Shown piece after piece: positions 22,371-64,000 of a stretch of 64,000 nt of DNA. The stretch comes from Eutreptiella sp. 'Long Island Sound 2002' (Eukaryota > Euglenozoa > Euglenophyceae > Eutreptiales > Eutreptiaceae): the NCBI GenBank assembly GCA_964036045.1, contig OZ038381.1:100569367-100633366 (forward strand). Reading direction: 5' to 3'. The notes under the pieces were generated by a model. The model saw only the letters and a list, made by a program, of their open reading frames with translations, was not told where the DNA came from and did no database searches. The position numbers and the translations under genes are program-made. Every line of letters begins with the position of its first letter. Within the stretch, counting starts at the first letter, position 1.

Positions 22371-22390
22371 CCCTAGTGGCCCAAATTAAA
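22371..22390 (+). repeat. Left TIR of transposon C
   Basis: CCCTAGTGGCCCAAATTAAA, a perfect inverse match of 27,454-27,473. Confidence 0.9.
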
Positions 22391-22671
22391 GTCAATATGG
22401 TTAATCTTAATTTTGAATATATGAACCGGTTACTATATTGATCTCGCAAATATTAAGAGGTTAGCGTTCAAACTTTTTGATTGGGTCATTTGTACTCAAT
22501 TTTCCATGCACATATGACGACCCATAAGGGGTGTTACGTGGTATATTGTTGCACAACGGTATAGTAGAGATGTTCCAATGGTGTGTTGGTGGGTGTCTCG
22601 GACACCCCCCCTCCGGTTGCCCGGATTCCCCCCCGCTCCACACCACCATGTTCCCCTATATAGCTCTTGTT

Positions 22672-24608
22672 ATGCCTTTCTCTCGGGACACCCTTACCGA
22701 GCTTAACATGACGCTCGAGCGTTTGAGTGGAGCCAAGAGTTTGCGGCACCCTTTGATCTCACAGCTTCTTGGTTAGTGGGAGGCTTCATCTCCCTTGGCC
22801 CGGGCCCGATGGTCTGAGCCCTTGGAGGTTGGCTACCCCTCCCTCATTCGCGACAAGCAAAAGGAGGCGGTAAAGCATTATGCCTCCCACCTCTTCCCGG
22901 CCCCGGACCTCATTGACCTCCACATGGACTGGAACGTCCCCAAGCTTGGCTTCCGGCACATGATGGAGTACATGAGCCGCCGGGGGTCGGCCTATACGGC
23001 CGCCATGGGCCTCCCGTTCGCCAAGCCCATCCCCACTTGGGAAGCGTTCACGGACGAGTGGAAGGAGTTGGTCACCCCCCTTGACCTACGGCCGCCCATG
23101 TCCATCTCCGATCCCCCGGCGAGCGGGCGCTCTTGGCCGCTACCCTTATGGGCTCAGTATGTCCAATCACGTCCATCGCTAGTGGACACCATCTATTGGA
23201 CAAGGCCCCTCACATTCATAGTTTGTGGGGATGCGTACCCGTGCGCCGGTGGTAGTTGGACCCAACTCTGCATTGGGCTCCTTGACCACGGCGCACGGGG
23301 CCGCACACCCATGTACTTGTGGGTGATAGGGATGGCCGTGTGCGGGGACAAGGACATGGCGGCACTAGCAACCATATGGGGTGACAACTTGAATGTTTGT
23401 GGCCCATTCGTTGTTTGTTAACTTTTGCATTTTTTTGCGTTAGTTTCTCGAGATTAATTTCTAGATTTTGGTTAATATTAACGTCGACTGAAAAATTAAC
23501 TTAATATTAATCTCGAGAAATTAATGTAAATATCAATCCATGTCTTTTTTGCAGGTATTGTAGTCCATACAAGACTGCAAGAAGTTCTTCTAGGTGTCGC
23601 ACTGGGTACCAAGCGGGTTGGTCATCGGGGGAGACCAACCCTTCGTGCGGCGCCTCATCGGTGTGTCCACCTCGCCCTTGGTGGGCTCAATTTACAATAT
23701 GTGGGTGTGGGACAAGGTTGCGGCGGCATGGGTCAACGTGGCGACCTGGCGCACATTGGACTGTGAGGAGGCGGTCCGCCTCCGCTACAAGGAGACCGGC
23801 CGTAGCTTGGAGAATGGGGGATGCATAGACGATCCACACATTTTTGTTCACCGGTGCGTGGTTTTCCTATGCATCCTCCATTGTTGCATGGCCATAGGCC
23901 GCCTCCAAGTGGCGTTCATCGAGACACGCCTCGTGGACCTCCCCAAGGAAAACATCAACGCCGTGCAACGAGTCCTCTACAAGGCCCGCACGGGTGTGAA
24001 GTTGGGTGCGTCGGCGGCACTAAATGGGGAGGAGGCCCGTGCATTGTTCCTCGTGTGGTAGGACCTTGGTCCGTTGTTGGACTACGTCCCGGAGGAGGGT
24101 GAATGGCAAGCCGTCGTGGCCATGCGTGACCTCCTCCGGGAGTTGTACACGGACAAGCCGCCCCGCGGGGACCTACGTGCGGCCGAGGTGGCGTGCACCT
24201 ACAATGCACATTGTTGGCGTGCAAATCAAACTACCTCCTCTATTGGGAGGAGGATGTCACCAAGGCCGTGGCGAACGCACGCCGCTTGGGGGTTGGGTTG
24301 GGTGCCGTGTGCGCGGATGTTGTTGAGAGCCTCAACGCCATCCTTAAGCGCGCATACAATGACCACTCGGGCCAGGGGGGGGTGGGGGTGCCGGGTCAAC
24401 CCAACTAGAACAGGAGGGGGAGGTAGTTTTGCAAGTGTGGGAGTGGTGGTTTTTACAATTTGACCTCCCCTTGCGGACCTACCGGACTCCCCACACCGGC
24501 CCATGCACCATGGCTAAACGTAATGGCCACCCATAGCCCCCCGCCCTCCGTCCTTGCTTCCCCTCCGCTAGCTTTGTTTTCGCCTTGCCATGGACGCGCC
24601 AGAAATGA
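22672..24608 (+). CDS. Transposon C gene 1: unrecognised transposase candidate (spliced; internal TAGs)
   Basis: The first exon runs from ATG 22,672 to 23,394. A GT-AG intron of 160 bp (23,395-23,554) splices in phase 0 to an exon starting at 23,555. Homology to D1 (27,807-29,660) covers nearly the whole protein. Conserved landmarks are LLG-x-W near the N terminus, CGDAYPCAGGSWTQ (about 23,224), GGDQPFVRR (about 23,630), CILHCCMAIGRL (about 23,871), AMRDLLRELY (about 24,121), YLLYWEEDV (about 24,231) and WEWWFLQFDLPLR near the end. Four TAG codons (22,774; 23,561; 23,591; 24,059) lie in frame inside conserved sequence. The first aligns with CAG (Gln) in D1. Frame changes near 24,205 and in the G run near 24,375 are probably indels. 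The best end is TGA 24,606-24,608. Conserved acidic and Cys/His residues suggest an enzyme, most likely the transposase, but no known catalytic triad is evident. Confidence 0.6.
23395..23554 (+). other. Intron 1 of gene C1, carrying the C-specific motif
   Basis: Donor AAT|GTTTGT, acceptor TTTTTTGCAG, phase 0, and the same position as the D1 intron donor. It contains TTTCTCGAGATTAATTTC and ATTAATCTCGAGAAATTAAT, inverse copies of one another, as well as TTAATATTAA. Confidence 0.7.
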
Positions 24609-24659
24609 AAAAGATGTTGTCCGACATGTTCGCAATCAATAATCGAGCCTCGCTGTGTT

Positions 24660-24853
24660 TTGCTTGTGCACGCTTGCTTGTGTGTTCCGATTAATATTTG
24701 CTCCGAGTTTGTTAATTTTTTGAGATTAATATTAATACCCGCGTCCATTAATACAGAGTATATTAATTAATCTTTCGGTCCAGGATATTAAGTTCAAGAA
24801 ATTCACTCGGGGGATTAAAAATTAAAGATTAATTTTTGTGCGTCTCTCCATAG
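24660..24853 (+). promoter_or_regulatory. C-specific ATTAAT motif cluster between genes C1 and C2
   Basis: Contains TTTTTTGAGATTAATATTAA, TATTAATTAATC and several ATTAA/TTAAT repeats in otherwise GC-rich surroundings, ending in CATAG directly before the ATG of C2. Similar clusters lie at 22,380-22,470, 23,425-23,545, 25,935-26,085, 27,175-27,270 and 27,395-27,450, all in non-coding parts of element C. Confidence 0.55.
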
Positions 24854-27082
24854 ATGGCCCAAGTGGATGAACGGCTGGCAGGAGCAGCTCCAGCGCATGC
24901 TCCAGCAGCCCTGCCAGCCCTGCCTCCACCCGTGGAGAGTCGCCCGCCGCCCGCGCGCCCATTCGAGGAGTCAAGCGACGACTCCTCGGATAGGCGAAAA
25001 AGAGAGAAGAAGGAGAAGAAGAAGAAGAAGAGGGAGAAGAGGGAGAGGAGAGAGAGGGAGAGGAGCCAGGCGCTCGGGGGGGGGGGGGGGGGGGCTACAC
25101 GCCAGTCGGGGGGGTATTAAGGACGAGGGGGAGGGGGAAGTGGTGGTGGACGAGGGTAACGGGGACGGGGAGGAGGGGGAGGGAGTTGAGGTTGTTGACA
25201 GCCCCCCCATGCCCCCCCCCCCCTCCCCTATTGGCTCCTGAAAGCTCTGGGCCCCTAGTGCGCCACCGCCCGGAAGCCGGGGGCGATTGGCTGGTCAGCC
25301 CAGGTGCTGGAGCCAGGATGTGCGGGAAATCAACCGGTCCCCCCCCCCCCCCCCCGCGCATAGCCACATGACAATCATGTGGATTTCCCGGAGGTTAATC
25401 CGGTGTTTGATTCGCCGGAAGGAGGGGGAACATAGAGGCACTTGGGGTAAGGATGCCTCCAGGGGGGGGTCTTGGGTCTGGAAACCCCTCTGTGGTGCCC
25501 CCCTGGCCCCCATGCCTGAGGCCACGAGTGTGGGCAGTTTGCCCGCACTCAATTTGTTGTTTGACCCCCGCGCCGTCCGTTTCGGGACGGCACACTACTA
25601 GGTACTACTACAGCATTGGACCCAGCTGGGCTGGGTCAAGGAGTTGCGGCAAGGCAAGGCTGTCGTGTTCGGGGTTGACTGGGGCATTGTCCTGGCCCTG
25701 CCCCGACCCATTTATGATCCGGGGTGTCAGCCCTGGTAAGAGGGCCTCACGCGCGCACAGCGAAGGCGGCCCCAGTGGCCGCGAACGTGGCCAAGCCGGC
25801 CGCCAAATCGGCCCCAATGGCCAGCGGGGCAGACCCCATTGAGGGCCCCACTGCAGCGTCTCACTTCCGAGATGCCATTGGGGCAGTACAGGCAGCAGGC
25901 ACCGGTGCTACGTTTGAGGTATGGTACTTGCTTGTTTCGCTTAATTTTTAGGTCGCCAGCATTAATTTCTTGAGATTAATTTTTAATTTTTGAACCGCCG
26001 CTCGAAATATTAAAAGTTAAGGGTTAGTATTAATGTCTAAAAATTAAAACAGTCACTGAAAATTAATTCACACTTCTGTTATCTTTTTTCTGTCTGTACG
26101 TTATAGACGTCGTGGTCAACGCGACGCACACCAGGGCCCATCCCGGTCGCCTGGCGCGACGCTGAGGGATCCCAAGAAGTACCCCTGGCGTGCCTCCACC
26201 GCATCAGGGCCCCACTCCCACCCTTGGGCCTTCCTCTCTTGCGAGGTCTCCATTAGTCGGAGACCTCGCGTGTGGTGAGCGGCGTTTGGGTGACGTCGCG
26301 TCACTTTCGGCCCAGCGAGTGGGCCCGGATGCAGGTAGTGGGGTATGTGGGGGGGGGGGGAGGATGAGGGGTTGTGGAGGAGCATGGGAAGGGGTGGGGT
26401 GAGCGACGAGGAGGGGGGGGGGGGCGTCCACCACTACCGCGCCAGCACCCCCCCCCCCCGGCCAAGACGCAACCCAACCCCTCCCAACCACCCTCAAATA
26501 AACGTTCGAAACAACGGTTTGCCTGGAGTCCGGCTCGGAGAGCGACAACGCGGCGAAACCCCGTAACAAAAGGCGCCCCCCCTCCCCCATCCCCCCCCCC
26601 CCCACCACCACCGCACCGCCTACGAAGGCCGGCTCCGCCCCCAAACCCACCAACCCCTCCAAGACCGTCCCCCCCCCCCCCCGACCAAGACCGACACCCC
26701 CAAAGGTGTCGAGAAGAAGGACGACCGTCCCGAGGATCCGATCGTCATGACGGTCGTCCACGTACCCTACCCCACCGGGGTAGAGAGGGGCACCGTCTGT
26801 GGTATCCACCGGCGGAAGCATGGTGCCGTTTGGCTGAAATGCCTGGGCGGCACCACCCTCTACGAGGTGGCCCGGCCCCTCCTCTTCCCCACCCCCGAGG
26901 AGGCCGAGCGGTACGGGGACGAGGCCCGCACGGGCAAGAAAAAGGCCATACCCCACGCCCCCACAAACGAAGAGACTAACCCCCCGAACCCAAACCCAAC
27001 CATTGAACCCACTAACCCCGCTAACCCCTCATCCGGACCCACAAAGACATGGGACCCCATTACGGGGTCCCATGAAGTGTGA
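24854..27082 (+). CDS. Transposon C gene 2: Pro-rich, charged protein (spliced)
   Basis: Starts at ATG 24,854 with a Pro/Ala-rich segment, then an acidic serine patch (EESSDDSSDRRKREKKEKK) and a Lys/Glu/Arg-rich helix-like tract. G and C homopolymer runs (25,078-25,094, 25,342-25,355) shift the apparent frame. An intron at 25,919-26,105 (donor GAG|GTATGG, acceptor TTATAG) contains the C-specific motif. The following exon contains GPIPVAWRDAEG, a match to D2 (GVRVLVRRRGG). A long Pro-rich linker precedes a small conserved C-terminal domain (YPTGVERGTVCGIHRRKHGA, then LLFPTPEEAERY), matched in D2 by LLFKAKEEAEAY. The end is TGA 27,080-27,082. TAG codons at about 25,361, 25,427 and 26,254 fall in frame. 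The composition suggests a DNA- or chromatin-binding accessory protein; the function is not known. Confidence 0.5.
25919..26105 (+). other. Intron of gene C2, carrying the C-specific motif
   Basis: GT-AG, phase 0. Holds ATTAATTTCTTGAGATTAAT, TATTAAAAGTTAAG and AGTATTAATG. It is strongly AT-rich compared with the flanking GC-rich exons. Confidence 0.6.
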
Positions 27083-27453
27083 GGGCCCGCATAGGGACCC
27101 AATGGGCCACAATGGCCATGGACAACATGCGTGAACACACACATGATGCATTACATGTTGTGTTGTGCCATTGTTAGGAGGGTTAATATCAATGCCAGCC
27201 ACTCATTAATTTTTAAGTTTTCAAATATTAATGCAAAAGTTAAAAACAAAAATTAAAGCCGAGAGCCATTTTACCATTTTGAAACAACCACATGGGTAGG
27301 ACCCCCCCACCAACCCCCGGGGGAAACGACTCCCAAGCCCGTAAGGCAGCCCATGGGGGCATAATTTTCACGGCAAACCCCCTAACCCCCCTTAAATCAA
27401 TTGACACTTGAGATTAACATGTTATTTTTTGGCCAGATATTAAATACATTGGG

Positions 27454-27473
27454 TTTAATTTGGGCCACTAGGG
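27454..27473 (-). repeat. Right TIR of transposon C
   Basis: Perfect complement of the left TIR; the satellite resumes at 27,474 with CATATGCATGC. Confidence 0.9.
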
Positions 27474-27655
27474 CATATGCATGCATACCATGGCATAATA
27501 CATCATGCACACATGCATGCAGGTGTATGCTGTGCCACGTAGGCACTCGTGTAGCTGCACAATGTACCACACAAGCACGCATGTAGTTGCAGGATCTGCC
27601 ACACATTCATGCAAGCAGTGGCACATCCTTCACACACCCTATCCGGTACTCAAGA
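27474..27655 (-). repeat. Satellite array, inverse orientation, final piece and flank P edge
   Basis: Reverse complement of 2,565-2,735, including the array boundary CACACCCTATCCGGT. It is followed by eight bases of flank P before transposon D begins. Confidence 0.85.
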
Positions 27656-27694
27656 GACGCGAGCCCTAGGAACCCGCTAGAAGTCTATCAGAAT

Positions 27695-27780
27695 GTCGGT
27701 CTAATTGGAACGATTAGAACACTTTTTGGTTAGACCACCTCCTTGTTCCAAGGTGTTAGAACACCGTTAGGTCACCTTGT
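27695..27780 (+). promoter_or_regulatory. D-specific GTTCTAA/TTAGAAC motif cluster, leader
   Basis: Contains GTCTAATTGG, GATTAGAACAC, GGTTAGACC, GTTAGAACACC and CCGTTAGGTC within 80 bp upstream of gene D1. Equivalent clusters are at 28,560-28,690, 29,810-29,920, 31,205-31,345, 39,860-39,965 and 40,118-40,150. Confidence 0.5.
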
Positions 27781-27806
27781 GTCCATTCACCTCACGGTAT
27801 TTTTTT

Positions 27807-29660
27807 ATGCCCTCTCCCATTGATGACCTAACCACCCCCCTCCTGTTGCTAAGTGGTGGGATCGGTTTGCGGGATGATCGTGTTGGGGAGTTGTTGGGGC
27901 AGTGGGCCTCATCTTCCCCGTGGGCCCACCACCAATTTTTGGTGGCCGCAAAGGTCATCAGTTCCTCGGTGCACAAGGAGGCGTGTAAGGTTGCCGTGGC
28001 ACAATATGCCCGGTGCGTTCTCACCCCCGAGGCCATGGTGGAATTGGTGCTCATCATGCGGTCCCCCAAGAATACTCTTCGGCAAGTCTCCGAGCTGATC
28101 AGCTTGCTGCAGCTCCAATATTGGTGCACGGTTACACAATTGAACCCAGACCACTATGTTGAGCTCCTGTGTACCGGCAACGCCTTCGACCTAAAGTCCC
28201 AGGAGCTGCTTACCCCTTTGCAGCTGGATCCGCCGACGTCCACCACCCATCCCTGCGCTACAGCGGTGGTGTGGCCCCTGGACTCTTGGATCCGGTACGT
28301 CTTCAGCCGACCCGCGTTGATCCGGCGGGTCTACAAGAGTTTCCCCCTCACTTTCCTTGTTCGAGGGGATCGGTACCCTGTGTCGGGCAGCTCATGGACC
28401 CAGATCACCATCTCCTTGGCGAACATGGGTTGGTTGTGCCGGTTCTTTGCCGCTGCTTGGGCACTGCGGCTGGCCAACCGCCATGACAAGCAGATGCCGA
28501 CCCTAGGAATCCTTTGGAAATGCCTGTTTGAGGTACGCAAGGCTGCAACGCAATGGTGCAATTGTTGTTCTAATGGTGTTCAAACAGAAGCGTTCTAATC
28601 GTGTTCCAGCGCTTTTTGCCTTGTTTCGTTAGAAGGTCATTAGAATGCTTCAGTTAGACCATGATTCAATCAAGTTGCACCTTTTGCGTAGCACGCCTTT
28701 CAAGGCATGATTGACGAGGGCACAGTCCACTCGGGTCCTGAATGTGATGTTGCGGCTAAGCTTCGGCTTGGTGGCGACAGGCCCTTTAGCCGGCGCATGG
28801 CAGGGTTATCCTCGGCCCCTCAAGTGGCGTCCTTCTTCAATGAGGGAGTTTTTTTTGGCACAAGGACACCGGGACGTGGAGTGGCTTGGAGGTGCGCCAC
28901 ATCATGGAATGGGATCGGGCACACCACGCATGCTTCTTGGCTGGTCGCAAGTCATTGCATTGTGCGGGTTGCAGTGTGACCCCGCTCCTTGTGATGCCCC
29001 GGCAGTGGGTGATCCCGTGCATTTTGCATTGCACCATGGCAATCGGTCGCTTGCGGCAAGACTTCATTAGGAAGGAGTCGGAGGGGTTACGCGCCGCGGA
29101 CACGATCCGCCAAGAGGGCGACCTTGCGGACCATAAGACAGGATGCTCCATCTTCCAGTCTCAATTTCCGGACGGGGAGGAGTCGAGGGCCATGTTCGAT
29201 GCATGGCTGTGCTAGCGCGCCGGCTCCGCATCTCTACCACGGCTCGGAAGTATGGTTTGGGTGTGGCCATGGGGTTACTATTGCGAGATTTGTATAGGAC
29301 AACTCACGAGAGGAACCTTGTGTATCGCGCCGTTGCCAAGGAGTATCGCCTGCAATGTTGCCCCGTCACAGCGTCAATCTACATGGTTTTTCTGGAATGA
29401 GATCGTGACTGGATGTTGCGGGGTGTTCGTCCATGGCGGTTAGCGATGTTATCAGGGGATGTGCAAAAAACCCTCAACCGGTTCGAGAAGCAGGCACACA
29501 ACGAGCATAGTGTGCTAGGTGGTGGGTCGTTTGCGAATTAGGGGCTGGCAGTCGGCAGCTTGCGGCAGCAATCAGTGAACAGGGAGACTTGCAGTGCTGG
29601 GGCAATGCTTGTGGTGGTCTTTTGTGTATTTGGACACCCATGTCCAGGTCCATGGCTGAG
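27807..29660 (+). pseudogene. Transposon D gene 1, homologue of C1 (frames broken)
   Basis: Begins MPSPIDDL at 27,807. The first exon ends at GAG|GTACGC (28,533), at the same place as in C1. The intron to about 28,706 contains D-specific motifs. Shared landmarks are ELLGQWASSSPW (the Gln is CAG where C1 has TAG), RGDRYPVSGSSWTQ (about 28,356), GGDRPFSRR (about 28,762), CILHCTMAIGRL (about 29,019), AMGLLLRDLY (about 29,269) and DVQKTLNRFEKQAHNEHS (about 29,458). Frame changes near 28,858 (a T run) and 29,200, and a degenerate end near 29,660, make this copy non-functional. Same unknown function as C1. Confidence 0.6.
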
Positions 29661-29927
29661 TGCGGGCTTTGGCTTGTCGCGCCTGTGAGGCCCTGGAGGT
29701 CAAGGTTGCACATCCGGCGCTCCACGGACCTCCTGTTTTTGTGACCAATGGCACAACCCCCAACGGGACTGAGCCAAGGAGCGTGGCAGGCCATGGTATG
29801 TCCTAGTCACGTTCTGATAAACAGTACTAATTGCGTTCTGCCGAAACCGAACGGATCGTGCGATTCCTTAGAACACTGTTAAAACCTTGTGTTAGAACGC
29901 CGTTACAACAATCGCCATTTCGTATAG

Positions 29928-31700
29928 GTCTCCACGCAACCAGCCCTAGTGGCTGTGTAGCAGCTGCAACCGGCCCCACCACAAGACCAGCCATTGCAGC
30001 CGCCGCCCCCCGACGTGCAGTAGTTGCCCCCCCCTAGCCCTAAAGCTCCTCCGCCGGAAGACCCTCCCCCGCAAGTTCATCAACCGCCACCCCCCCACCC
30101 CAAAGCGAAGAAAACGGGGAGGTTGTGCCCGAGCCCTCCCCCTCCAATGTGGAGCAATTGCGCCGCCGGCTGCAGAAGGTGACCCGCTGGCGCAGGTGGG
30201 TCAACGAGAATCCGGAGGACGCGGAGGGCAAGAGGGAGTTGGCGAAGGCAAAGAAGAAGTGGGAAAAGGAGGTGGCGCGGTGCTTGGCGCAGGGGATGCA
30301 ACCACATGAGATCCAGGGTGTGAAGGAGCAGGAAGGGAATGCGATGGAGGAGGATCCGGATGTGGAGTTGGATGCGGGGGACAAACGGCAGGAGGAGGAG
30401 CCAAAGGGGTGATGGGATGTGGTGTTGGTGGCGGATTGGGTGCAGCGATATCGGGCGAGTGAGTGGTTGGCGGGGCTGATGGGGCCGGGATAGGGCAGCT
30501 AGGGGCCTGTGCCATTGGCCCTTCAACCAAGCCGCCCTGGATGCGCCGCAGCCCCCGGGGCTGGATGAGCCCCTGTTGACTGCCCCGGAGAGCCGGAGGC
30601 ACACACTCCGATGGTGCCTCCATGAGGCCCATAGGAGATTGTCGAAGGAGGTTAAGTGGGCGTCCGAGGCTGAGCGAGCTCGGGAGCGGAAGCCGGATAG
30701 GGGGGCGGGGTTGAGGCGCGGCAAGTGGGTGTACACCTTGGGGGGGGGGAAAGAGCAAACCCTCCAAACGGTCCGTTTGTGATGTCGCGCATGTCCTAGT
30801 TCAACTTCTTAGCATGCGCGATGGTCGGGAGGGCGGGGTCGAGGAAATACCTGTTCCTTGCCCACACGTGGGGACTTTTGGGGCCGGGGAGGATGGTGAT
30901 GGCAGGCAAGGGGGGGGGGGGGGCACGGCAGCATGGGAGCCCGACTGGGATCAGATTTTATGGTGGGGGGAGTATAACCCGGATACGGCCAATAAGGGAG
31001 GCTATGGGGGGAAAGTGACGGCGATGCCTAGAGGGGGGTGAAGGAGTCGAGTATAGGGCAAAGGGCACGGAGGATGGCATGGGGCGACATGGCAACACTG
31101 CCAGCTGAGATTCTGCGTCAGCAGGATGAGACGCAGAGGAGGATCGGGAGCTAGAGGAGCAGCTGCGGATAGCAATGGGGGCCGTGGAACTGCGAGCTGA
31201 CCAGAGGACGATGGTATGTTCTAACTCTTTTCGGACAAATTTTTTCTAAAGACGTTCTAACGAAACCGAACGAACGCTCGCGCCTTTTGCCTTAGACCGC
31301 GATTCGAACACTTTGATTAGCACATGATTAAAACGTTTGCCCATTGTCACAGGTCGGCGACAGGCAGCTGAATGTTGAGCATCGGGACGGGGTCCGGGTG
31401 CTTGTTCGTCGACGTGGAGGACAAGTCACCGCCGTGCCTCTAGGGTCGCTGCGCTGCATGGTCACGCGGCATCCGCTTCAGGTCGTGGACGTTTTGGGGG
31501 CGTTGGAGATGTGTTCCAAGGGCCGGAGCACGCTGAAGGGGGGGGGGGGGGCTGGGTGGGGTTGGATGAGTGGGACTGGGATCAGCATGCAGCTGCAAAT
31601 TCGAGGGCCGAGGAGGCCCCGCACCCCAAACCCAGGGCACCGGAGCCCCCCCCCCCCCCAAGGCCAAACCCAAACAGGCGGCCCTCCTGTCGCCATCCTC
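29928..31700 (+). pseudogene. Transposon D gene 2, 5' part, homologue of C2 (interrupted by LINE)
   Basis: The exon starts after TATAG with a Gln/Pro-rich segment in which TAG codons stand next to CAG (for example GTG TAG CAG CTG CAA and GTG CAG TAG TTG). A C run shifts the frame to a charged segment (VEQLRRRLQKVTRWRRWVNE, ARCLAQGMQPHEIQG). Another exon (30,500-30,782) has TLRWCLHEAHRRLSKEVKWA. An intron at about 31,213-31,352 with D-specific motifs precedes GVRVLVRRRGGQVTAVPLGS, the match to C2. A Pro-rich linker follows and is cut by the LINE near 31,700. The 3' part resumes at about 38,960. Confidence 0.45.
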
Positions 31701-31739
31701 CTTGAGCCTGTTAGCGATGAAGATGACAAACTATCGTTT

Positions 31740-32890
31740 CTCAACCGAGCACTCGCCCTCAACTACAACCTGCCATTTGGTCGTGAAAAGCTGCAAATGG
31801 CGGACAGGTCTATCATGCACATGCGCACACATGATCGACTGGATGTCTGGATAGCAAGCAGCACAAGGGACTCCAGGAGTATGTCACCACCCCCGACGTA
31901 CAAGCTTCTGCGATTTATGACACTTGGAGGTGAAGTCGATAAAGTTGTGTTCTATGAGCCAGACGTACGGGACAACCAGTACACCATCCAGGTCCACAGG
32001 GACTTGATGAATTGTGTGTTGGGAGCTATTGGCTTGAACTGTGATGATGTCCACCTCCTTCCGGGAAAAGACCGACGGAACTGGAAGTTGTTCTTCACGG
32101 ATCTGAACGAGGAACAAGTGAATGCCGTGGTCTCGCAGTTTTGGTTCCAAGCCAAGGTTTCAGACCCAGCCTGTGGAATGGTATCGAGGGGCCGACCTGA
32201 CGAGCATGTCTGCCGTTTATGAGGTTTGGATAAAGAAGACGCTAACATGGTTGCCTATGTTATACGCCTCAGTTCTTGCAATGTTCTGGACGGTCCTTGG
32301 CGTCTTGCAATCACAATAACCGGTGAAAATCCATGTGTTGGGCCCAAGTAAACTCGTACTGGGCCTCGGAGACACTGGGCACTCACTGTTGAAGACCAGA
32401 TATCGAGAACTGGTGGCAGCCATTGGAGCTGTTTTCAAACACCCAAAGACAGCGCAATTCCTCGACCGAGACGTCGTCTCTAAGCCTGCTATCCCATCAA
32501 CGTGGAAGAAGGAGCTGGTGGGCACCGTATACATCTTGGATGTGGCGTCCTGGTGGTACCTCTCACATCTGACGGAAGCTCTTGCCCCCTTGGTGCATTG
32601 CCAATACATCGCAGACCGCGTCAGGTGGAGCGTTGGAGAAATGGAGAAATGCGCACAGCCACGCGGCTACTGACTGGGGAAAGTGCATCACAACTGGTTC
32701 GGAAGGTCTATTTGTCGGATTCTGGAATGCCCCCCATGTTTCTGATCTCAAAGGCGGACTACGAAGCGCGGAAAAAGCGCATCACAGACCGCCCCAAGAA
32801 TGCAGATGATGCCAAAACACGCATACAAGGCCTAAACACGGCAGGTGAAATTGCCAGGGCAATGGAATTGGACCACCAAGTCGACTAGGT
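31740..32890 (+). CDS. LINE ORF1-like region
   Basis: Open frames give KLLRFMTLGGEVDKVVFYEP, MNCVLGAIGLNCDDVHLLPG and, after a break near 32,222, VHWASRDTGHS-like and KKELVGTVYILDVASWWYL segments ending near 32,888. Composition and position before the endonuclease suit a LINE ORF1, but there is no visible RRM or zinc knuckle. Two frames are needed, so it is either broken or has a small intron near 32,222-32,320. Confidence 0.35.
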
Positions 32891-32971
32891 CATAAGCTAT
32901 CTCAAAAGAAAAGGAGACTTGAAGGAGGATGAGGCCTCGTCGACCACAGGAGTGGCGGTGGTGCAGAAACC

Positions 32972-48140: not shown

Positions 48141-48232
48141 TTTCTCTTTGCAGCTGTGTTTGTCACTGTGGTATGGGTTCTACCACCCATTGCTAGTGCT
48201 TTTGGTGTGTATATTTGCTGTTTCATGTTTTT

Positions 48233-48392: not shown

Positions 48393-48510
48393 TTATCCAA
48401 TTTTCTTGTCAGGCAGCCTGTTTTGGTCCCTTTTTGGTTTATTTGTGCTTGTTATTTGCTATTTGGGGACTCTCCCCTTCATGAAATGTTGCCGTGTAGC
48501 ATTTTATTTT

Positions 48511-51134: not shown

Positions 51135-51137
51135 AGT

Positions 51138-51856: not shown

Positions 51857-51881
51857 GGGTGGGCAACTTGTGACGCCTAAG
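51857..51881 (-). repeat. Right TIR of transposon A
   Basis: Ends GGGCAACTTGTGACGCCTAAG, a perfect complement of the left TIR for 25 bases, followed by the target duplication ATAAA. Confidence 0.93.
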
Positions 51882-52300
51882 ATAAACGCATCCCCCAATG
51901 AGTTTTTGGTCCGAACCTCCCCCCCCCCAAGATCCCCCCCACTTGAAACCCTCTTTTTGGAGCTTTTGACAGAGTGGGGGGTCGGGGGGGGGGGGGTAGT
52001 GGGGTGTCAAAAAATGATTGCTGCCTTTTTTGGGTCAAAATTATGAATCTTTTGGTTGCTTTTTTCCGATTGTGAGCCGAAAAATTGTTTTCGGGTTCCG
52101 ACTCCATGAGGTTTGTATGGGGCGGAGTGGGACGAGCGCTTGTGCAGGGGTTTTGCAGCTTTTCACCCTGGGCAGCTCAAAAATCGTAGTTTTCGAAACC
52201 TCTTTTTCCAATACCATGATCACTTGAAATGACCATGCAAGCTATGTAAAGCGTGTTTTAGGCCGTATTTGCGTTGTTCTTTCACTATTTTGTGTGTGCA
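51882..52300 (+). repeat. Foldback-family segment, continuation after transposon A
   Basis: ATAAACGCATCCCCCAATGA continues the repeat cut at 45,340. It includes GAGCCGAAAAATTGTTTTCG and GGGGCGGAGTGGGACGAGCG, the same order as at 14,075-14,310. Confidence 0.85.
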
Positions 52301-53930
52301 TTGTTGGGAGTAAATTCTCTGCGAGGCGGACTTCCCGAAGGCAATAGAAAATCGGAAACAGATGTCTTGGACTTTTTTTTCTGATACCGTGATCACCTAA
52401 AATGACCGTCCAAGGTAAAGCATGGTTTATGCCCCAATTACGTGTCATTCACCCTATTTGGGTATTGGGCGGTGGGGGGGTATCCCAAGGGATTGGTGCA
52501 CAACCTGCTTATGCAGTTTTTCATCTTGGACAGCTCAAAAATCGAAGTCTCCAAAACTTATTTCTTTTGATATTGTGATCACCTAAATTTACCATCCAAG
52601 GTATTTAAAGCATGAGCAATTTGCCGTCATCTTACAACTCTACTTGGAATGGGACCAATGGATGCTCATAATAAAACAAGGCAAGTTTGTATGAATTTGG
52701 GCTCTTTGATTTTCATAGCGAGATCCCCACCAACGGCTCATCACTTAAGTGTGCATTGCTCAGAGTAGATTCTTTGCGAGGTGGACTAGCCGAAGGCAAT
52801 ACAATTTCCAAAACTGATTTTTCTGATTTTTTGACCAGCTAACATGGACTAATATCTTATGTAAAGCATGTGTTAGCCCCCTTTATGTGTTTTTCACACT
52901 ATCTGGGTGTTGGGGGGGGGGGAGCTCCCAAGGGGTCTAGGGCACGACCCGCTGGTACAGTTTTCTCGCCTTGGCACTTCAGAAACGGAAATTTTTGAAA
53001 CTGATTTTTTTAATGCTTTGACCATTCCGAATGATCAAATATCCTATGTAAAGCATGTGTTAGGCCCTCTTTATATGTTTTTCACACTATCTTCTTGTTG
53101 GAAGAAGGGAGGGGGGGGGGGGGCTCCCAAGGGGTCGAGGGCACAACCTGCTCATGCAGTTTTCTAGCCTCGGCGGCTCAAAAATTGAAATTTCCGAAAC
53201 TGATTTTTTTGATTCTTTGACCCCCAAAATGATGAAATGTCCCATGCAAAGCATGTTTTAGCACCTCTTTATATGTTTTTCACACTATTTGGTTGGGGGG
53301 GGGGGGGGGGGCTCCCAAGGGATCTAGGGCCTAGCTTGCTCATGCAGTTTTCCACTCTCGGTAGCTCAAAAATGGAAATTTTCCGAAACAGATTTTTTTG
53401 ATACTGTGACCATCCAAAATAATCAAACATCCAATGTAAAGCATGTTTTAGCCCCTCTTTATATGTTTTTCACCCTATTTGTTTGGTTGGGGGGGGGGGG
53501 GGGGGACTCCCAAGGGGTCTAGGGCATAGCTTGCTCATGCAGTCCTCCAGCTTTGGCAGCTCAAAAATGGAACTACCCTAAACTGATTTTTTTGCTACTG
53601 TGACCATCCAAAATGATCAAATATTCCATATAAAGCACGTTCTAGCCCCTCTTTATGTATTTTTGACACCAGTTGGGTGTTGGGTGTTTGGGGGCTCCCA
53701 AGTTGTGTGGGGCACAACCTGCTTATGCAGTTTTCTAGCCTTGGCAACTCAAAAATTGAAATTTACAAAATTGTTTTTTTGCTTTTGTGACTATCCGAAA
53801 TGCTCAAATATCCTATGTAAACCATGATTTAGCCCCTCTTTATATTTTGTACCCTGTATTTGCGTGTGTAGGGGGGGGCCGGGGCTCCCAATGGGTCTAG
53901 CGCACACCCTGCTTTTCCAAGCATGGTTCG
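52300..53930 (+). repeat. Tandem array, period about 185 bp, with G runs
   Basis: Eight or nine units, each with CTCAAAAATGGAAATTTCCG, ACTGATTTTTTTGATA, AATGATCAAATATCC, TGTAAAGCATGTTTTAGCCC, TTTATATGTTTTTCAC, a run of 8-19 G and CTCCCAAGGGGTCTAGGGCA. Single units also occur at 42,110-42,240 and 44,930-45,110. Not coding. Confidence 0.88.
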
Positions 53931-53944
53931 GTCTATAAATGGCT

Positions 53945-56811: not shown

Positions 56812-57260
56812 TGGGCTTTGTAGAGCCGAGACCAGTTGTGTAATTGATCTTAGGCCCCAATATTACACATTTGAGATCCCTACAAGTTATTCCCTTTGTG
56901 CCCACCCCCGTTACAACAAGTGGCTCATGTATACAGTGGTCAAGTGGCCACGCGACATGGCGCTGGGTGAAGTGGTATACCTTTCCAGATGCTCTAACAT
57001 AGTCAGCCTAAACATTGTCCCCGCGGATTCGGTCAACAGGAATAGGAATCAAGGATACAACTCTTGCATACCAAACTGGTGGGCAATGATCAGAGACACG
57101 TGCCAAACCACGCACCGCATCATCTAGACGGAGGTGCCAAAATGACGCCTATATTAGGACTTTTGAACAACCTGGGCTCTGCAGAGCCCCGCATTCATAT
57201 ACTTGGTACTTAAGGGGTACTCATTAGGGTTTCTTTGTTCGCTGGGCTTTGTAGAGCCCA
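56812..57260. promoter_or_regulatory. B-type palindromes in the leader
   Basis: Imperfect copy at 56,812-56,829 (GGGCTTTGTAGAGCCGAG), good copy at 57,173-57,190 (TGGGCTCTGCAGAGCCCC) and 57,243-57,260 (TGGGCTTTGTAGAGCCCA). 56,830-57,690 otherwise shows no gene. Confidence 0.8.
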
Positions 57261-57690
57261 GACCTTCACAATGTCCCATTTTGACCACCTGTTGTGTGAC
57301 ACAATAGCACTATTACACTTTGAATCCTATTCTACATGTGGTCTGCTGTTATATTTTTCTATGCCTTTCTATTGTGTTGCTCTTGTGTCGTGATGTACAA
57401 TGGTCCCACCGTGGTATTGTGTAAGTATCACAGTTAGCAGCCGTTGAGGAGTACTTTGCGACAAGCCTGAGACCGTTTCCACGCAGGTGTAGTTGGAGCT
57501 TGATGATGTGATGTTTCAAGTGGTGTGGTGTGTCTGATTCTATTAGAGTTTCGGGACACACTATTTGCAGTATACCCTCATCTATTGCAGTTGACTTTTG
57601 TCCATACTTTGCAGTGCTGTTATATTTCCTATCTGGTTGTATGTCCCATAAATGAACTACATGTACCTTGCTATTTTCTTTTTACAACAG

Positions 57691-58642
57691 CCATGGCTGA
57701 TTTTCCACACGTTACACCTACGGAGGTGGAACTATCGGGTGCCGGCCAGGATACCGAAGGAGATGAGGTCGTAGGACATGTACCCTTACCGGTCCCATCG
57801 ACCGGAGAAGCGGCAGTGCGTGCTACAGCTATGCTCTCCTTGCAAGAGGCGATTATGTTTACGGGGTCAGCACCCCCATTCCCACCGCGGCCAGCAAAGT
57901 TTGTTTCAAAGGACCAGCCAACCCCACAAAAGGCGTCCCTCAATGACCCATTGACTCCGAAGACAATGGACTTGCTGAAGCACAACGGTGGTTGCCACGA
58001 ACGATGGTTCGTGCAATAAATCTAGGGGCTTCGCGCATGCTTCCGTTTCGCATTGCGGAACCCAATGGGCAACCCCCTTGTCACATGGCGACAAGGGAAT
58101 CGGATATGCCGATCCCATTTTCTATCAAGCAGCGAGGAGCGGGCCGCATTGATCCTCGATTAATCCGCAATCAAGTCCCCCTGTGGAGTTGCCTTTACCA
58201 TCCCCGTATCCCACCTCCTCGGCCACTTCCTCCCCCGGATGCCAACCAACCCACACTTACACAAATTGATTGGCACAACTCCAATCGCTAGCAGATACGG
58301 TCGCTTCGACCACTTGTGGAAGCAGACCACACGGGTGGGCAGTCAAAATACATCATGTTGCCACCAGTGCATGTACCGGATAGAAGCACCTCCCGTGCCT
58401 TGAGTCGCACTTCACTGAACTCCAGTGGGAGGCGTTCAGTTAGTGCTCCAGTGCCCGTGCTTGATAATGCGATACCCCCAAGGACTTCCCACCCCCCCCC
58501 CCCCCGCCGCACTTCCCTGTTGCCCCGTGCCGCCGTTGAAGACAACCAACAGACCCCGAGGTACTCACTGTTGCCACATGTGCATGTAGCATTGTCACAA
58601 GGTATCGCTCAATTTGCATCCCCACAACCATGTACTATCTGA
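57691..58642 (+). CDS. Transposon B accessory gene: Pro-rich, unrecognised
   Basis: Starts ATGGCTGATTTTCCACACG at 57,691 after a CAACAG that could be a splice acceptor. The first frame encodes an acidic start and AMLSLQEAIMFTGSAPPFPP. Near 57,960 the coding register changes to AEAQRWLPRTMVRAINLGAS and continues past a TAG at 58,289-58,291 (next to CAG, in NSNR-x-QIRSLRP) to TGA 58,640-58,642. Two similar segments (LPPVHVPDRSTS and LLPHVHVALSQG) suggest an internal repeat. The composition, rich in Pro, Ser and Arg, is like the accessory genes of C and D. It lies upstream of B1, whereas the third gene of A lies downstream. Confidence 0.45.
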
Positions 58643-58800
58643 GCAAAGAGAGATGGTCAATATGGGTCACGGTGGTCATTACTACTTGATATGCCACTGG
58701 CCAAATGGTGGAAAACTATGTGACCTTCACATCCACTAAGTGTTTCGCCTAGGTCCCATATGTGTGTTATGCACCCCATAATTATCACTTTTAGGGACCC

Positions 58801-58940
58801 TGGGCTCTGCAGAGCCCGGCCTACGCCAAATGCTACTTTTATTCCTTCCCAGTTACTTGCTTGTAGCTTCCTATATCCCCTCTGTCTATTACACGGCCCG
58901 CCATTCCCAGTTTCCGGATGCTAGGCTCTGCAGAGCCCAA
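58801..58940. promoter_or_regulatory. B-type palindromes between the accessory gene and B1
   Basis: TGGGCTCTGCAGAGCCCG at 58,801-58,818 and AGGCTCTGCAGAGCCCA at 58,923-58,939. The remainder of 58,643-59,079 is non-coding. Confidence 0.8.
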
Positions 58941-59079
58941 CCTTTTTGAACAACCTAATTTCATGTCTTTGTGCATGCTCTCCGCAATGCAAGCCCCGTA
59001 CTTCTATTACGTCACGTGTGAACTCAGCCCCCACAATGCATGGTATGTGCTAGTCCACGCCTACTGCTAGTGTCCTATT

Positions 59080-61236
59080 GTGGTTACCGCCTTTTCCTGT
59101 TGTGCCACCCAGACAGTCTTCTCACAATGGCGCCGTTTTCTATGGTGTTGCATGTCAGCTACATGCGGTCTCTTTGTAAGAAAGTATGGTGCACTAGTCG
59201 CCCAATCATGTGGGCGGGTGTGCGCCATGGTGTGGCGCATGAATTCATACAAATCTACGTGTCTACGTGTTAACCAGCGGTCATGCATTACGCTTGACCG
59301 CATTCGCCAGGTAGTCGAGGAAAACAATGGCCGCGTTGCCTAACTCATTTTTCCAAGGAGGTATATTATGTATGGCTAGGTATGCGTCGCATGGAGTTGC
59401 CACAAGTTGCCGTCCCCAGTGGTGAGAGCACCATTGATGTCATGCGGGCAAACGGCCGCAAGCTGGTGCACGCAGGTCTCACCAAGCCATGCCGGTGGGC
59501 TATTGCTCACCAGCGGGCATTACATTTCCGCAAATTGTGGCGTAGCATTGTCCAGCGTGATATTGTGGTGTGGGTGGACAAATGGTGGCATGCCGTGTTT
59601 CGGGCCAATCCAGTGAAACGCAATGTCTATCTAGCTGCCCCTGTTTCTTGGTCACCCGAGTCTACAAGACCTACTGGACCGAGTTGACACAGTGGTCATG
59701 GCGGTTGTTCAATGGCACAGGCAAATGTGGAAGGTGTGCACTCATATGTGCAATGCACCCTTTTCTCGCACAACCATCCGTGCCCCCCTCCATATTGCTC
59801 GGCAGGTTGGTAGACAGCAACTCCCTTGGAATCCATTTGGCATATATGAGTCCCGTACAGGTCAGAACCAACAGCTCTTGGATCTGCCCGATATGCTACG
59901 CAGTACCCGACCCCATTATCAGAACCTGATGGCATTGCTCGTCGATTGTAACGTCCACCACTGGTTGCTCAAAGTTTTGTACTCTAGAGCAACCATTGAC
60001 TAGAATTTTCCGGATTGGTTGCGGGGTATCTCGTTAACTTGCGGCGTGTGGCACCCCTACAAACATGTTTACAATATCATCTGGTGTGAATTCTTTTCTT
60101 TGTTTTCGTACAGCACCGCTCCTGTGTTTGGGGCCGGTGCGCGCATATATCACCACCCCAAACCCATTGTCATAGAGGAAACTGTCGTTGTGCTCCTCCT
60201 CGCACCCCCCGACATACGGGCACAACTTCGGCAGAAAATTACCCTGTTTGAGGGACGTGCGGACCAAGCAGCCCTAAACACATACGAAGGGTTGCGCATC
60301 CTTCGGGGCGTGGAATCCCTCCTTGATTATTACCTTTCAGCCATCTTTGTAGTGGGACACTTAGTGCGTAGTTGCACTTGGGCTGGGTGCGCTGAGAGGT
60401 CCGGTATAGTAGCCACGTGTGTACTTCAGCGCTGTGTGGGTCTATACATTGACCTTGCCGGTCCAGCTGCGGCGAAAATGGACTATGTCCGCACTTCTGT
60501 ACAATACGCAATGGCGCAACGACACGCCCGGTGCCGCCCATGGGGACGAATGTTGTGAGGCCCTGCTCGCAAAATTGCAGGCACGGTGTAAGTAATATCC
60601 CGACAAGCACACGGCGGATGAGGTTGGTGACCTTTTTTGCACCATGGCCCGCCTTCAGCAGGCACTTGCAACGGACTCCCTCTCCCAAACTCTGTGTGTA
60701 GAGGTGCGGGACGAGGTATGGGCACTGATGCGTGGTGCAAGACACGAGGAGCATCCCACTGTGCGGTGGTCCTCGGTCAAGTCAGCGTGGTTGAGGAAGA
60801 AAGAGACACAACGTACGTGTTCCCCAAAAAGGGAACCAGGGGTACGCTAGCTGTGGCGTCTATGCTATGTCTATTGTCTATTGCGTTGATGAATTCTATT
60901 CTAAAGCGCTTTCTGCGCACCCTCGTAGGTGGACAAAGGCTCCGTGATGATGCCATGGATTACATACGGCAACATATCCTACTGAGGCCACGTTTGAACT
61001 GCCGCGAGGCCCGGGCAGCAGTAGAAACCGCTGGGTTCATACCAATTGCAATGGAGCACATTGTTCCCCCAGTGCAAAATGCAATCTTCATTGGTCATGT
61101 GCGCCCCCGCCTTGAGGATGGTGTATTTGTGATCCGGGCCAGGGATGCTGTAGATCTTGACGCCCTCTCTGAAGGCCCTGTATCTGTTGTGCTCAGTGAG
61201 GAGTTGCGTGAATTTGATGTGATGGATTTAGATTGA
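59080..61236 (+). CDS. Transposon B gene 1, homologue of A1 (TAG and TAA in frame, several frame changes)
   Basis: Segments in order: LRVNQRSCITLDRIRQ (about 59,263; A1 leader match), RRMELPQV (59,385), VWVDKWWHAVF (about 59,570), LLVDCNVHHWLLKVLYSR (about 59,938), GVWHPYKHVYNII (about 60,047), AIFVVGHLVRSCTW (about 60,340), EALLAKLQARC (about 60,560), then ILKRFLRTLVGG and an acidic end at TGA 61,234-61,236. TAG at 60,001 aligns without gaps to Trp in A1, and TAA at 60,593 aligns without gaps to Arg in A1. Frame changes near 59,340, 59,685, 60,500 and 60,790 may be indels or introns. Function as for A1: possibly the transposase. Confidence 0.5.
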
Positions 61237-61338
61237 CCACGAGGGGGGTGGCAATGTTGCCCCCCCCCCCCCCCCGCCAAGACAGCCCAATCGGCATTTG
61301 GATGTGTACGACCCTATTATTGCGTGCCCCCAAATGTC

Positions 61339-61545
61339 TGGGCTTTGCAGAGCCCAGCTTTGTCCGACACTGAGTTTTGAGGGGTTGTATTACTGGTTCT
61401 TGTTACTCTGGGCCCTGCCGAGCCCAGCCTATCACCATTCCCATTATGTACCTAGCTTTGTCCGACACTGAGTTTTGAGGGGTTGTATTACTGGTTCTTG
61501 TTACTCTGAGCCCTGCCGAGCCCAGCCTATCACCATTTCCATTAT
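61339..61545. repeat. 92-bp tandem duplication carrying B-type palindromes
   Basis: GCTTTGTCCGACACTGAGTT to CCTATCACCATT occurs twice (from about 61,358 and about 61,452), each with a palindrome variant GAGCCCTGCCGAGCCCAGCC-like. A third copy stands at 61,339-61,356 (TGGGCTTTGCAGAGCCCA). Confidence 0.85.
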
Positions 61546-62101
61546 GTACCCCCATCTGGTCAGTGTCTGTTCTTTTTTTAGGGCTGGGCCAGTCTTGGAC
61601 CATGCCATCACCATGCTTTGATCAATGCACACATGTCCATGCTTTCGTATTGTGCACGCGCCATGTCACCCACGAAGAGGTGTGCCTGGCATTGCTGCAC
61701 TAATACACTGTTACGATGTATGACGGCAAAATACCATAAGCAGCTTTGGCTGTGGTGTTGCAGGCCATTTGGACAGGCACAATTTTACTCTTACTCTGTA
61801 CCTGCGTCAACGAGGGACGTTTTGGTGGGCCTGTTTGGTGCTGTGGCCATCACTGTGCACTGGACGTTGTATTGGAGACGCCCCTGCAGTGATTGGCTGT
61901 TTTGAAGACAATTTTGCCTATTTCAACCCCTGTGGGTGCCGAACGGAATGCTTTGTGCCGGCTAATTTGCTGTCCGAATCAGCCATTTGCCATCATTGAT
62001 GCCTTGAATTGTGTGATCGTTGTGTTGTTTTTACTGACTTGATTTGTTCTGTAAAGTCTGTTTGTTTCTGTGACATGTGTGACATACTAAACGACATTGC
62101 C
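61546..62101. other. Non-coding interval between genes B1 and B2
   Basis: Short open frames without homology to element A. It may contain a 5' exon of B2 (for example the Cys-rich frame at 62,009-62,101), but nothing supports it firmly. Confidence 0.35.
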
Positions 62102-63302
62102 ATGGATGGCAACGCTGGTGAAACATCAGCGATGGACACACTGGAAGCCGAGAAAGTGGACACACTGCAGCCAGAGCCCTCCATAGAGGTGGCTGTACAA
62201 GGCACCACTGTTGCTGGTGCCAGCCCGGCCAGTCAATCGCCCTCTCAAATGGGGAACAAGTCTCGTCTTGCCCGGAAGATGGGTAGTATCAAGGACTCGA
62301 CAAGTGAACTAGCCTTTGCAAATTACGCGGAGTTGCGCCAGACCAAGGTGAATCGCAAGGAATTGAAGATTGACAGGACCATGGAATATGGGGACCACGT
62401 GGCAGAGGTAAAGGGGGGCCTACTTGCAAGCCCCTCTGATGGCCGGCGGCAGCTTCTGGTCTGGGATGACAAACGTATGCGAATGTCACGTCGCAATTGG
62501 ATCAATGTAACGGGCTACTTTGCCTGCCCTGTCTGATGTGCCATGCTGTTGTATTCAGTGGGAGCCCTGTGGGTGATTGTAGGCCAACACGGCGTTGCGG
62601 CGTGTGATGAAATTTGCAAGGATGTGACAGCAAGGATGGGCAAGGTTGAGGACTAGATGACCAATTCTGACGTGCGCATCATCAAGTTTGATTGGTACGT
62701 TGAGAACAGGCGAAAGCTGCTAGACAACACAATAGGGCGCAACACAGCGGACGTGAGAGCAGTGTAGCCCAACTGTTGAAAAATCTCCTACAACTGGCGG
62801 CTGAGGACACACATTGTAAGAACAGAGTTGTCACTTTGATGTGTGAGGCACTCGTGGAGGCGGGGCTGACTGCGAAATCCGGAAACACGGCGACAATCGT
62901 GAAGCAAATGAGGCCAGCTGTCCATATGGCCTTGACGTGTGGTACCACTTTCACGGACACAGTCGGCAAGATGGTGGAAGGCAAGCAGGTGATTGCCCTT
63001 TATGCAATGCGATGCTTCGCCAGAATGCAACCCGAAAACTTGTGGCACGTATGCAACTGCATGGCCTTGTCGAAGAGCACTGCACCAGGCTTTCAAAAGC
63101 TGGCAAAGGAGCTCCGTGCCGGAGAATTGTGGTGGTATCACTTTGGTCATCCCAACATGCCGCTGAGCGCCTCCACCCTTCAAGACATATGCTATTGCCT
63201 TGTAAGCCCCCTGCCTTCTTTTGTGAGACAATGTACTGCAACTCATATTCAATGGGCCGCTGCGACAGGGAGCATACATGAAGTGTAATATCCCATTTTA
63301 GT
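62102..63302 (+). CDS. Transposon B gene 2, homologue of A2
   Basis: Starts MDGNAGETSAMD at 62,102 with an acidic/Gln/Ser-rich segment like A2. The first exon probably ends at AAAC|GTATGC (62,474), in the same phase as A2 exon 1, and the next begins after GTATTCAG (62,560) to give LWVIVGQHGVAACDE. TAG at 62,654-62,656 lies in this exon, between KVED and MTNSD, in a region aligned with A2. After a register change near 62,760 the conserved part continues: LLKNLLQLAAEDTHC, CFARMQPENLWHVCN, LWWYHFGHPNMP. The frame meets TAA 63,286-63,288 and then TGA 63,300-63,302, about 27 bases before the next palindrome. No known family. Confidence 0.5.
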
Positions 63303-63328
63303 GTGACACCAAGCAATTTGAGTTTTCC

Positions 63329-64000
63329 GGGCTCTGCAGAGCCCAGGATCCCATGGGATGCAGATTGACTGGATCTACAGAGACGCTGTGCCCGTTGGAA
63401 CTTCCACAACTTCACTGATGTTGACTGGTGCAACCTTGCTTGATGATGTCCAAGGACCCCCCCCCCCCCCCAAGACACCCCCTACCTCACCATTTTGTTC
63501 GTGATGGGCTCTGCAGAGCCCAGGTCGAGCACATTGACCAATTTTAGGCGTCATGGCACCAATTGGAGAGTATTTGGCTCTGCAGAGCCCAATATGCCAT
63601 GGGATGCAAATTCATTGGATCTATAGAGACGGTGTGTGTCTGTTTGAACCTCCGCTATTCACCGATGTTGACTAGTGCAACCTTGCCTAATGATGTCCAA
63701 TGACCCCCCTCCCCAGACACCCCCTAATTCTCCTTTTTTTGCATGACGGGCTCTGCAGAGCCCAAATCAAGCACATTGACCGATTTCAGCCGTCATATTA
63801 CCAATTTGAGATTTTTGGGCCCTTCGGAGCCTAGGATCCCATGGGATGCCAATTGACTGGGTCTGCAGAGACTCTGTGCCTATTGGAATATCCGCAACTT
63901 CACCCATGTTGACTGGTGCAACCTTGCCTGATGATGTCCCAGGACCCCCCCCCCCCCCCCCACACACACACCCTAATTCATCATTTTGGTCATGCTGGGC
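63329..64000. repeat. Tandem units of about 245 bp, each with two B-type palindromes
   Basis: Units begin near 63,329, 63,576 and 63,816, each with CCCATGGGATGC, TTGACTGGTGCAACCTTGC, GATGATGTCC and a run of C. Palindromes are at 63,329-63,344, 63,506-63,522, 63,576-63,591 and 63,748-63,763, with a degenerate copy at 63,816-63,832 and a cut one at the window edge. No ORF. Confidence 0.85.

Follow-up and report, generated by a model that had tools for sequence, protein, structure and literature searches.

Family-specific paired motifs in the non-coding parts of DNA-transposon-like elements of Eutreptiella as candidate docking sites

A stretch of 64,000 nucleotides from Eutreptiella sp. 'Long Island Sound 2002' (G000:C4:100569367-100633366, hereafter the window) was analysed together with the 2.28-Gb eukaryotic genome to which it belongs (2,280,300,865 bases in 2205 contigs). 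The window contains satellite-like repeats, long interspersed nuclear element (LINE)-like genes and, at 22371-64000, four DNA-transposon-like elements, designated A to D. Each of the four has its own repeated motif in its non-coding parts, as had been claimed in an initial annotation of this DNA. Shuffled controls and genome-wide counts confirmed that these family-specific motifs are real, and three further families (A2, F and E) were found to have motifs of their own. The sites are frequently arranged as mirrored pairs with their centres about 70 bp apart, an observation that is new relative to the earlier annotation. Between related families the palindrome seems, as far as the compared sequences indicate, to change symmetrically and by degrees. 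We propose that the motifs are docking pairs for an element-encoded dimeric binder that would mark the element, most likely for anti-silencing or expression, and assign this reading a probability of roughly 45%. The elements of the window and their parts are given below in window positions and lie on the forward strand.

Element A, its motif and its relatives

Element A (45341-51881) is a DNA transposon with inverted ends CTTAGGCGTCACAAGTTGCCCACC and a 5-bp target duplication, ATAAA. In the window copy the inverted ends are exact at 45342-45364 and 51858-51880; the limits of the element were set from the flanks of other copies, which give CTTAGGCGTCACAAGTTGCCCACC as the end. Twenty further copies were fetched, 19 of which show both ends within the sequence retrieved (L022 was without its left end there), and identical 5-bp flanks were read from the printed sequence in all 20 copies with both ends, the window copy included. 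Terminal inverted repeats and a target duplication of fixed length are features of DDE DNA transposons, and element A has both. The family looks young and abundant; 40 places at 94-100% identity were scored from 710 first-look candidates, and a single cluster of 722-residue gene 1 proteins (P0194) represents 267 sequences.

The coding blocks of A were set by hand from homology to B and from open frames, and they fill 66% of the element. Gene 1 (45918-48140) encodes a probable DDE transposase and is split in the window copy between two frames (open reading frames (ORFs) at 46130-47188 and 47127-48137); the candidate acidic residues of the putative transposase in alignment A5 are D150 (15/15 sequences), D282 (20/20) and E490 (14/15). 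Gene 2 (48500-49690, exons approximate) is homologous to gene 2 of B, with 30-36% identity in three blocks, and gene 3 (49899-51097), which has an in-frame stop near 50440 in the window copy, is homologous to gene 3 of B. Two relatives of the A transposase, P0294 and P0065 (24% and 35-36% identity), are encoded on contigs of 2.1-2.5 kb that perhaps derive from other organisms. Both flanks of the element hold repeats of about 184-199 bp that contain poly-G runs (41884-42269, 44941-45141 and 52137-53913).

Motif A, CTGGCCGAAATTTCGGCCAG, is a 20-bp palindrome. With up to 3 mismatches allowed it was found 12 times in the window, always within 45617-51458, and not once in 100 dinucleotide shuffles. 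Genome-wide, 6168 exact copies were counted and the reversed control gave 0; among the motif A matches listed, all 50, which come from contig C1, belong to clusters of at least two when grouped by hand. Eleven of the 12 window sites are outside the coding blocks, the only motif-like site within one being a copy with 2 mismatches in the transposase exon (46484-46503). Three of the sites outside (48372, 49331 and 49729) nevertheless lie within longer stop-to-stop frames of the window copy. A majority sequence was derived from 18 aligned copies (17 genomic copies and the window copy; two copies shorter than 6.2 kb were left out), and none of its 13 exact motif A sites overlaps a coding block. It also has one site with 2 mismatches, inside the transposase exon. 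The sites extend over the whole element. The leader holds a cluster of four palindromes (45617-45846) starting at 45617, 45687, 45758 and 45827, at steps of 70, 71 and 69 bp, and a fifth at about 45546 is present in the majority sequence. A second cluster (48233-48391; sites 48233, 48304 and 48372) lies between gene 1 and gene 2, single motifs occur between the blocks of gene 2 (49331-49350) and between the gene 2 and gene 3 blocks (49729-49748), and further motifs at 51138, about 51368 and 51439 (51138-51458) follow gene 3 and occupy the trailer. A separate locus (G000:C1:15670312-15673187) has 11 motif-A sites in a layout that differs from that of element A and is perhaps a non-autonomous relative.

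Element B (57140-64000) is partial; it seems to extend past the window end, and its transposase, at about 59300-60560, is decayed. Eleven palindromes, given with their flanks as CTGGGCTCTGCAGAGCCCAG, lie at 57172-63765, including the pairs 57172/57242, 61338/61408 and 63504/63573. These are all of the matches in the window at up to 3 mismatches, and the mean in shuffles was 0.02. In seven related loci (L033-L039), the protein of which differs from the window B exon by 16 to 37%, 109 CTGGGCTCTGCAGAGCCCAG sites were found at up to 5 mismatches. At the same threshold, 20 of the 21 sites of locus L034 are outside the coding blocks, which fill 57% of it, and the lone exception has 5 mismatches. By eye, several spacers between paired sites of this locus also show TATTA-like words at comparable offsets, which perhaps represent a third element between the palindromes of a pair.

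A and B have three genes in common, in the same order and at identities of 30%, 30-36% and 24%. Two further families belong to this group. The A2 family (L031, L032 and L040) has leader sites of the CTGGGCGAAATTTCGCCCAG type, all of them imperfect, and the A2 motif itself was derived from these imperfect copies. L032 is a 2.64-kb A2 derivative with both ends (CTTAGGCCACGCTAACTACCC; target duplication AAATG) that retains just the transposase and the leader cluster. A reading of A2 as a transposase-only family, which would have named the transposase as the binder, was rejected, since L032 is a deletion derivative and homology to gene 2 or gene 3 was found in L031 and L040. The F family, represented by the leaders of L045 and L047, has two copies of GCGAAATTTCGCCACTC at a distance of 73 bp, of which one has a mismatch in L047. 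The sequence CTTAGG begins the ends of A, A2, F (CTTAGGCGGCCTTAATTGCCC in L045) and probably B (CTTAGGAGGCCCGTAGTGCCC in L034).

The motifs of A, A2 and B are all 20-bp palindromes that start with CTGG and end with CCAG, and the changes in their cores are symmetric. Their half-sites differ at 1 position between A and A2, 4 between A2 and B and 5 between A and B. In the full palindromes of A and A2, the differing positions are 5 and 16. The corresponding transposase identities are 46% over 596 residues (A-A2), 31% (A2-B) and 34% over 506 residues (A-B), and those involving F are 39% over 266 residues (A-F), 36% (A2-F) and 32% (B-F). A and A2 are thus the sole pair closest in both transposase and half-site, in a comparison that covers few families.

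Elements C, D and E

The second group consists of C, D and a further family, E, which have a gene in common (D-E, 48% identity over 248 residues; C-E, 40% over 212; C-D, 35% over 205). A profile comparison, made with shallow profiles and single exons of C, D and E, found no relation between the transposases of this group and those of A and B. Element C (22371-27473) has inverted ends CCCTAGTGGCCCAAATTAAA at 22371-22390 and 27454-27473, and homologues of it were found. Half-sites of the GAGATTAA type occur 22 times at up to 1 mismatch in 22301-27550, and 5 of these are exact, as compared with 0.08 expected. The three introns and the trailer hold the exact half-sites, the copies in the leader all have 1 mismatch, and several other such copies are in or near coding sequence. 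The block GAGATTAA/TTAATCTC stands out in intron 1 both of the window copy and of L043, a locus that matches window C over its first 1.3 kb only. Intron 1 has an inverted pair of TTAGTTTCTCGAGATT-type blocks (23440-23526) with arms 69 bp apart (15/16 positions matching), intron 2 a cluster (24711-24850) with arms 74 bp apart (13/16) and intron 3 an inverted pair (25961-26050) with arms 70 bp apart (13/16). Element C is inserted within a satellite-like repeat with units near 82 bp (2572-4772, 18059-22371 and 27474-27635), the orientation of which is opposite on its two sides. Elsewhere on the same contig, three C-type exons at 2949-bp steps (G000:C4:89981066-89987605) possibly form a tandem array.

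Element D (27666-40173) has the ends CTAGGAACCCGCTAGAA and TTTCTAGCAGGTTCCTA and is split by a LINE-like insertion, in which an RVT_1 match lies in 34928-35905 and an RNase H match in 36966-37691. Matches to reverse transcriptase and RNase H identify LINE-like genes at 7904-10855 and 34364-37691, and the second of these genes sits in D. The D motif, TTAGAAC, occurs 13 times in the window as against 3.93 +/- 1.90 times in shuffles. Ten of the 13 copies are in the leader, introns and trailer of D, one (33496) is in the LINE-like insertion and two (1348 and 5371) are outside the element. The sites are located in the leader (27714-27762), in intron 1 (28567-28646), where left-facing half-sites are followed by right-facing ones, in intron 2 (29868-29898), in intron 3 (31218-31260) and in the trailer (39882-39951), where mutually facing half-sites start 63 bp apart. 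In the window copies, the motifs of C and D are weaker than those of A and B.

The E family (L044) has 19 exact CTAGAAC half-sites, as compared with 0.37 expected, all in four clusters that occupy the leader and three introns. These introns, delimited by eye as GT...AG from the sequence alone, are about 130-160 bp long, and between about a half and three quarters of each is taken up by its cluster. Left-facing half-sites (GTTCTAG or GATCTAG) in intron 2 follow each other at steps of 11, 13 and 11 bp, and the right-facing ones do likewise; intron 3 has the same pattern with one extra right-facing site, and intron 1 is sparser. The array GTTCTAG-N4-GATCTAG-N6-GTTCTAG was found 397 times genome-wide (189 forward and 208 reverse), and its reversed control 0 times. 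At one locus (G000:C1:117381363-117388819), six E-type arrays follow one another every 1482-1489 bp, as though part of an E element had turned into a tandem satellite.

The initial annotation had also confined the motifs to non-coding parts and had described A/B and C/D as homologous pairs that share genes and not motifs. The placement was supported. The common genes were recovered within both groups and extend to E. The statement that homologous pairs share no motif was not supported and is only partly right: the half-sites of D and E are one base apart, A, A2 and B have their outer bases in common, and C does look unlike D and E. The extent of the elements, as first described, was incomplete with respect to the insertion in D and the probable continuation of B.

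Spacing of the paired sites and its possible causes

Mirrored pairs with centres about 70 bp apart are frequent in A, A2, B, F, C and most of E. Seven of the 12 neighbour distances in A are 68-71 bp, which was matched by at most 3 in 20000 random placements within non-coding DNA. Each of the 42 B site pairs with less than 121 bp between its members has a distance of 67-70 bp; the 109 sites come from 7 loci that are related copies and not independent. Sites in L032 (A2) are spaced at 69, 69 and 111 bp, and the distance between arm centres in E is 69 bp for intron 2, about 67 bp for intron 3 and about 55 bp for intron 1. When inverted arms were sought without reference to the motifs, the number of clusters in A, A2, B, C and E exceeded that in every one of 20 shuffles; some of the C and E clusters found in this way are coding DNA and not motif. 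This motif-blind search also gave the arm distances of 69, 74 and 70 bp in the three C introns and one of 67 bp in L043. The spacers between paired sites fall into groups, and between groups their similarity is mostly near the shuffled baseline of 0.56 +/- 0.04. Their lengths stay at 48-51 bp despite this mostly unrelated sequence, and a spacing that is conserved largely without the spacer sequence is indicative of a protein in contact with both sites.

The occurrence of identical sites at many separate places, their near-fixed pairing, their symmetry and their stepwise change fit a dimeric binder encoded by the element. The analysis shows the sites themselves, their pairing and spacing, their placement outside coding sequence, their specificity to families and their symmetric change; from these we infer that such a protein binds the sites, acts as a dimer and has a role in anti-silencing. 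Each element would encode its own sequence-specific dimeric DNA-binding protein, with the motifs as docking sites, and the mirrored pairs suggest that this protein bridges or bends about 90 bp, probably as a dimer of dimers. Sites in the leader, in introns or gene gaps and in the trailer would allow the element to be marked along its length while the encoded proteins are left untouched, and the E introns, filled by clusters to half or more, look as if they served as carriers. The most likely use would be a family-restricted self-activation or anti-silencing comparable to that of VANC for VANDALs, and a joint drift of site and protein would insulate families from one another.

Several results weigh against this proposal. 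In the motif-blind search, D was no richer in inverted arms than its shuffles (2 clusters, as against a mean of 1.05 and a maximum of 5) and L043 equalled its largest shuffle (3 and 3). Those arms that are visible in D are separated by 57-63 bp, some A sites (49331, 49729 and 51138) are solitary, and a few spacer pairs are above the baseline of 0.56 (up to 0.67 between B groups and up to 0.71 in A). None of the encoded proteins scanned had a recognised DNA-binding domain. CpG transitions are alike across regions of the 18 aligned A copies (13/898 in motifs, 16/1589 in other non-coding DNA and 65/5195 in coding DNA), and this equal decay gives no sign of hypomethylation at the motif sites. Motif sites in these recent copies are also no better preserved than their flanks, so that selection, if any, would act on the active lineage. 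CHG transitions are rarer in motifs (6/1355 versus 147/13205 elsewhere, p 0.017, with several classes tested and shared ancestry uncorrected), a difference that we count as evidence in neither direction. Overall in the A copies (17 of L009-L028 and the window copy), CHG transitions are about as common as CpG transitions and commoner than CHH transitions, and the host may have CHG methylation.

Of the other explanations, one that we regard as unlikely is that the sites are subterminal repeats bound by the transposase and required for excision, with the internal copies as by-products. In A, the distance to the element ends is about 200-510 bp for the leader cluster and about 420-510 bp for the trailer pair, L032 keeps both ends with only the transposase and leader cluster between them, and A and A2 are closest in transposase (46%) as well as in half-site (1 difference). 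However, this order is not matched elsewhere (4 differences at 31% for A2-B; 5 at 34% for A-B), the gene 2 or gene 3 homology of L031 and L040 shows that A2 is not transposase-only, and clusters lie far from the ends in the gaps of B and the introns of C, D and E. This spread, introns included, agrees better with marking of the whole element than with recognition of the ends alone. Equally improbable in our judgement are promoters, enhancers or operators through which each element would control the transcription of its own genes. At least one site does stand ahead of each of the three genes shared by A and B, but clusters occupy all three of the introns seen in E, and A has trailer sites as well.

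The remaining explanations have far lower probability. A host DNA-binding or chromatin factor, co-opted by the elements, would explain the spacing near 70 bp that is common to the two gene groups, but it fits poorly with motif sequences that are family-specific and change symmetrically between families, and we consider it very improbable. An action of the inverted pairs in RNA, as hairpins (a stem of about 20 bp and a 50-nt loop) in leaders and introns, would agree with the complementarity of the paired palindromes and mirrored arms; it is nonetheless implausible, as the 13 majority A sites have one sequence and each A or B site is itself palindromic, which a hairpin does not need. Neutral tandem duplication, with coding constraint clearing the exons, is largely disfavoured: L034 contains an array with three spacers 86-94% alike and a fourth 68-76%, and its pairs 537/2286 and 4710/4966 have spacers 78-80% alike, but spacers between the groups of L034, and mostly also in A, are near the shuffled baseline and yet 48-51 bp long, and the same motif is found again in separate introns and gaps.

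Relation to known systems and implications

In its comparison with VANDALs, the initial annotation had noted that the proteins here look unrelated. No Pfam or NCBIfam match names any scanned element protein, and no transposase family was found at E <= 1 among the scanned ORFs and exons of A to E, within the sensitivity of Pfam and with single exons for C, D and E. PDB sequence searches gave no lead on the element proteins. The first structure model of an element protein had a predicted local distance difference test (pLDDT) score of 39.8, and Foldseek searches against the PDB and viral models returned nothing at E <= 0.001; comparison with hAT and Transib transposases gave weak structural matches only. 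Related loci were found neither in viral contigs nor in the prokaryote contigs searched.

VANDALs, of the Mutator superfamily, have a Mutator-like element (MULE) transposase domain and a target duplication of about 9 bp. In contrast, the target duplication of A is 5 bp in 20/20 copies with both ends, and no transposase, MULE included, is named by any Pfam match to the scanned proteins. In En/Spm, the element protein TnpA binds a repeated subterminal motif and affects silencing; repeated motifs are common to both systems, whereas the sites described here are also in introns and gaps and not only subterminal. The comparison with VANDAL and VANC made in the initial annotation is a fair one, as family-specific motif clusters in non-coding parts are found here too. 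According to the portions of text available, VANC21 and VANC6 recognise family-specific motifs in the non-coding parts of VANDALs (PMC5735166), and these motifs are short, lie in introns, intergenic and terminal non-coding parts, and differ among related families (PMC5735166, PMC10398659). The VANC21 motif is described there as 9 bp long (YAGTATTAY), in a single orientation and in tandem repeats (PMC5735166), and the main text of that article, as available, has no word starting with 'palindrom'. The sites of A and B differ in being 20-bp palindromes, largely paired at about 70 bp, and A has inverted ends. A literature search found no account of the present system, which is not proof of its absence.

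A wider proposal, which we put forward more tentatively than that of docking pairs, is that two unnamed groups of elements, with no detected mutual homology, evolved self-marking independently of the VANDALs. Each would encode its own protein for sites paired at about 70 bp, retain introns as carriers by which the docking clusters are spaced out over the element, and have a lock and key that co-evolve through symmetric base changes, so that one family would not activate another. In the literature consulted, sequence-specific anti-silencing by transposons is known from VANDALs. If the proposal is true, a second origin would turn anti-silencing from a special case into a general strategy, in which marking of the self only would limit damage and competition. 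The pair spacing of about 70 bp in unrelated elements is a clear geometric constraint, and the young, abundant A family, with its 6168 exact sites, provides plentiful natural material. The housing of docking clusters would, if the proposal is true, give mobile elements a further and new reason to have introns.

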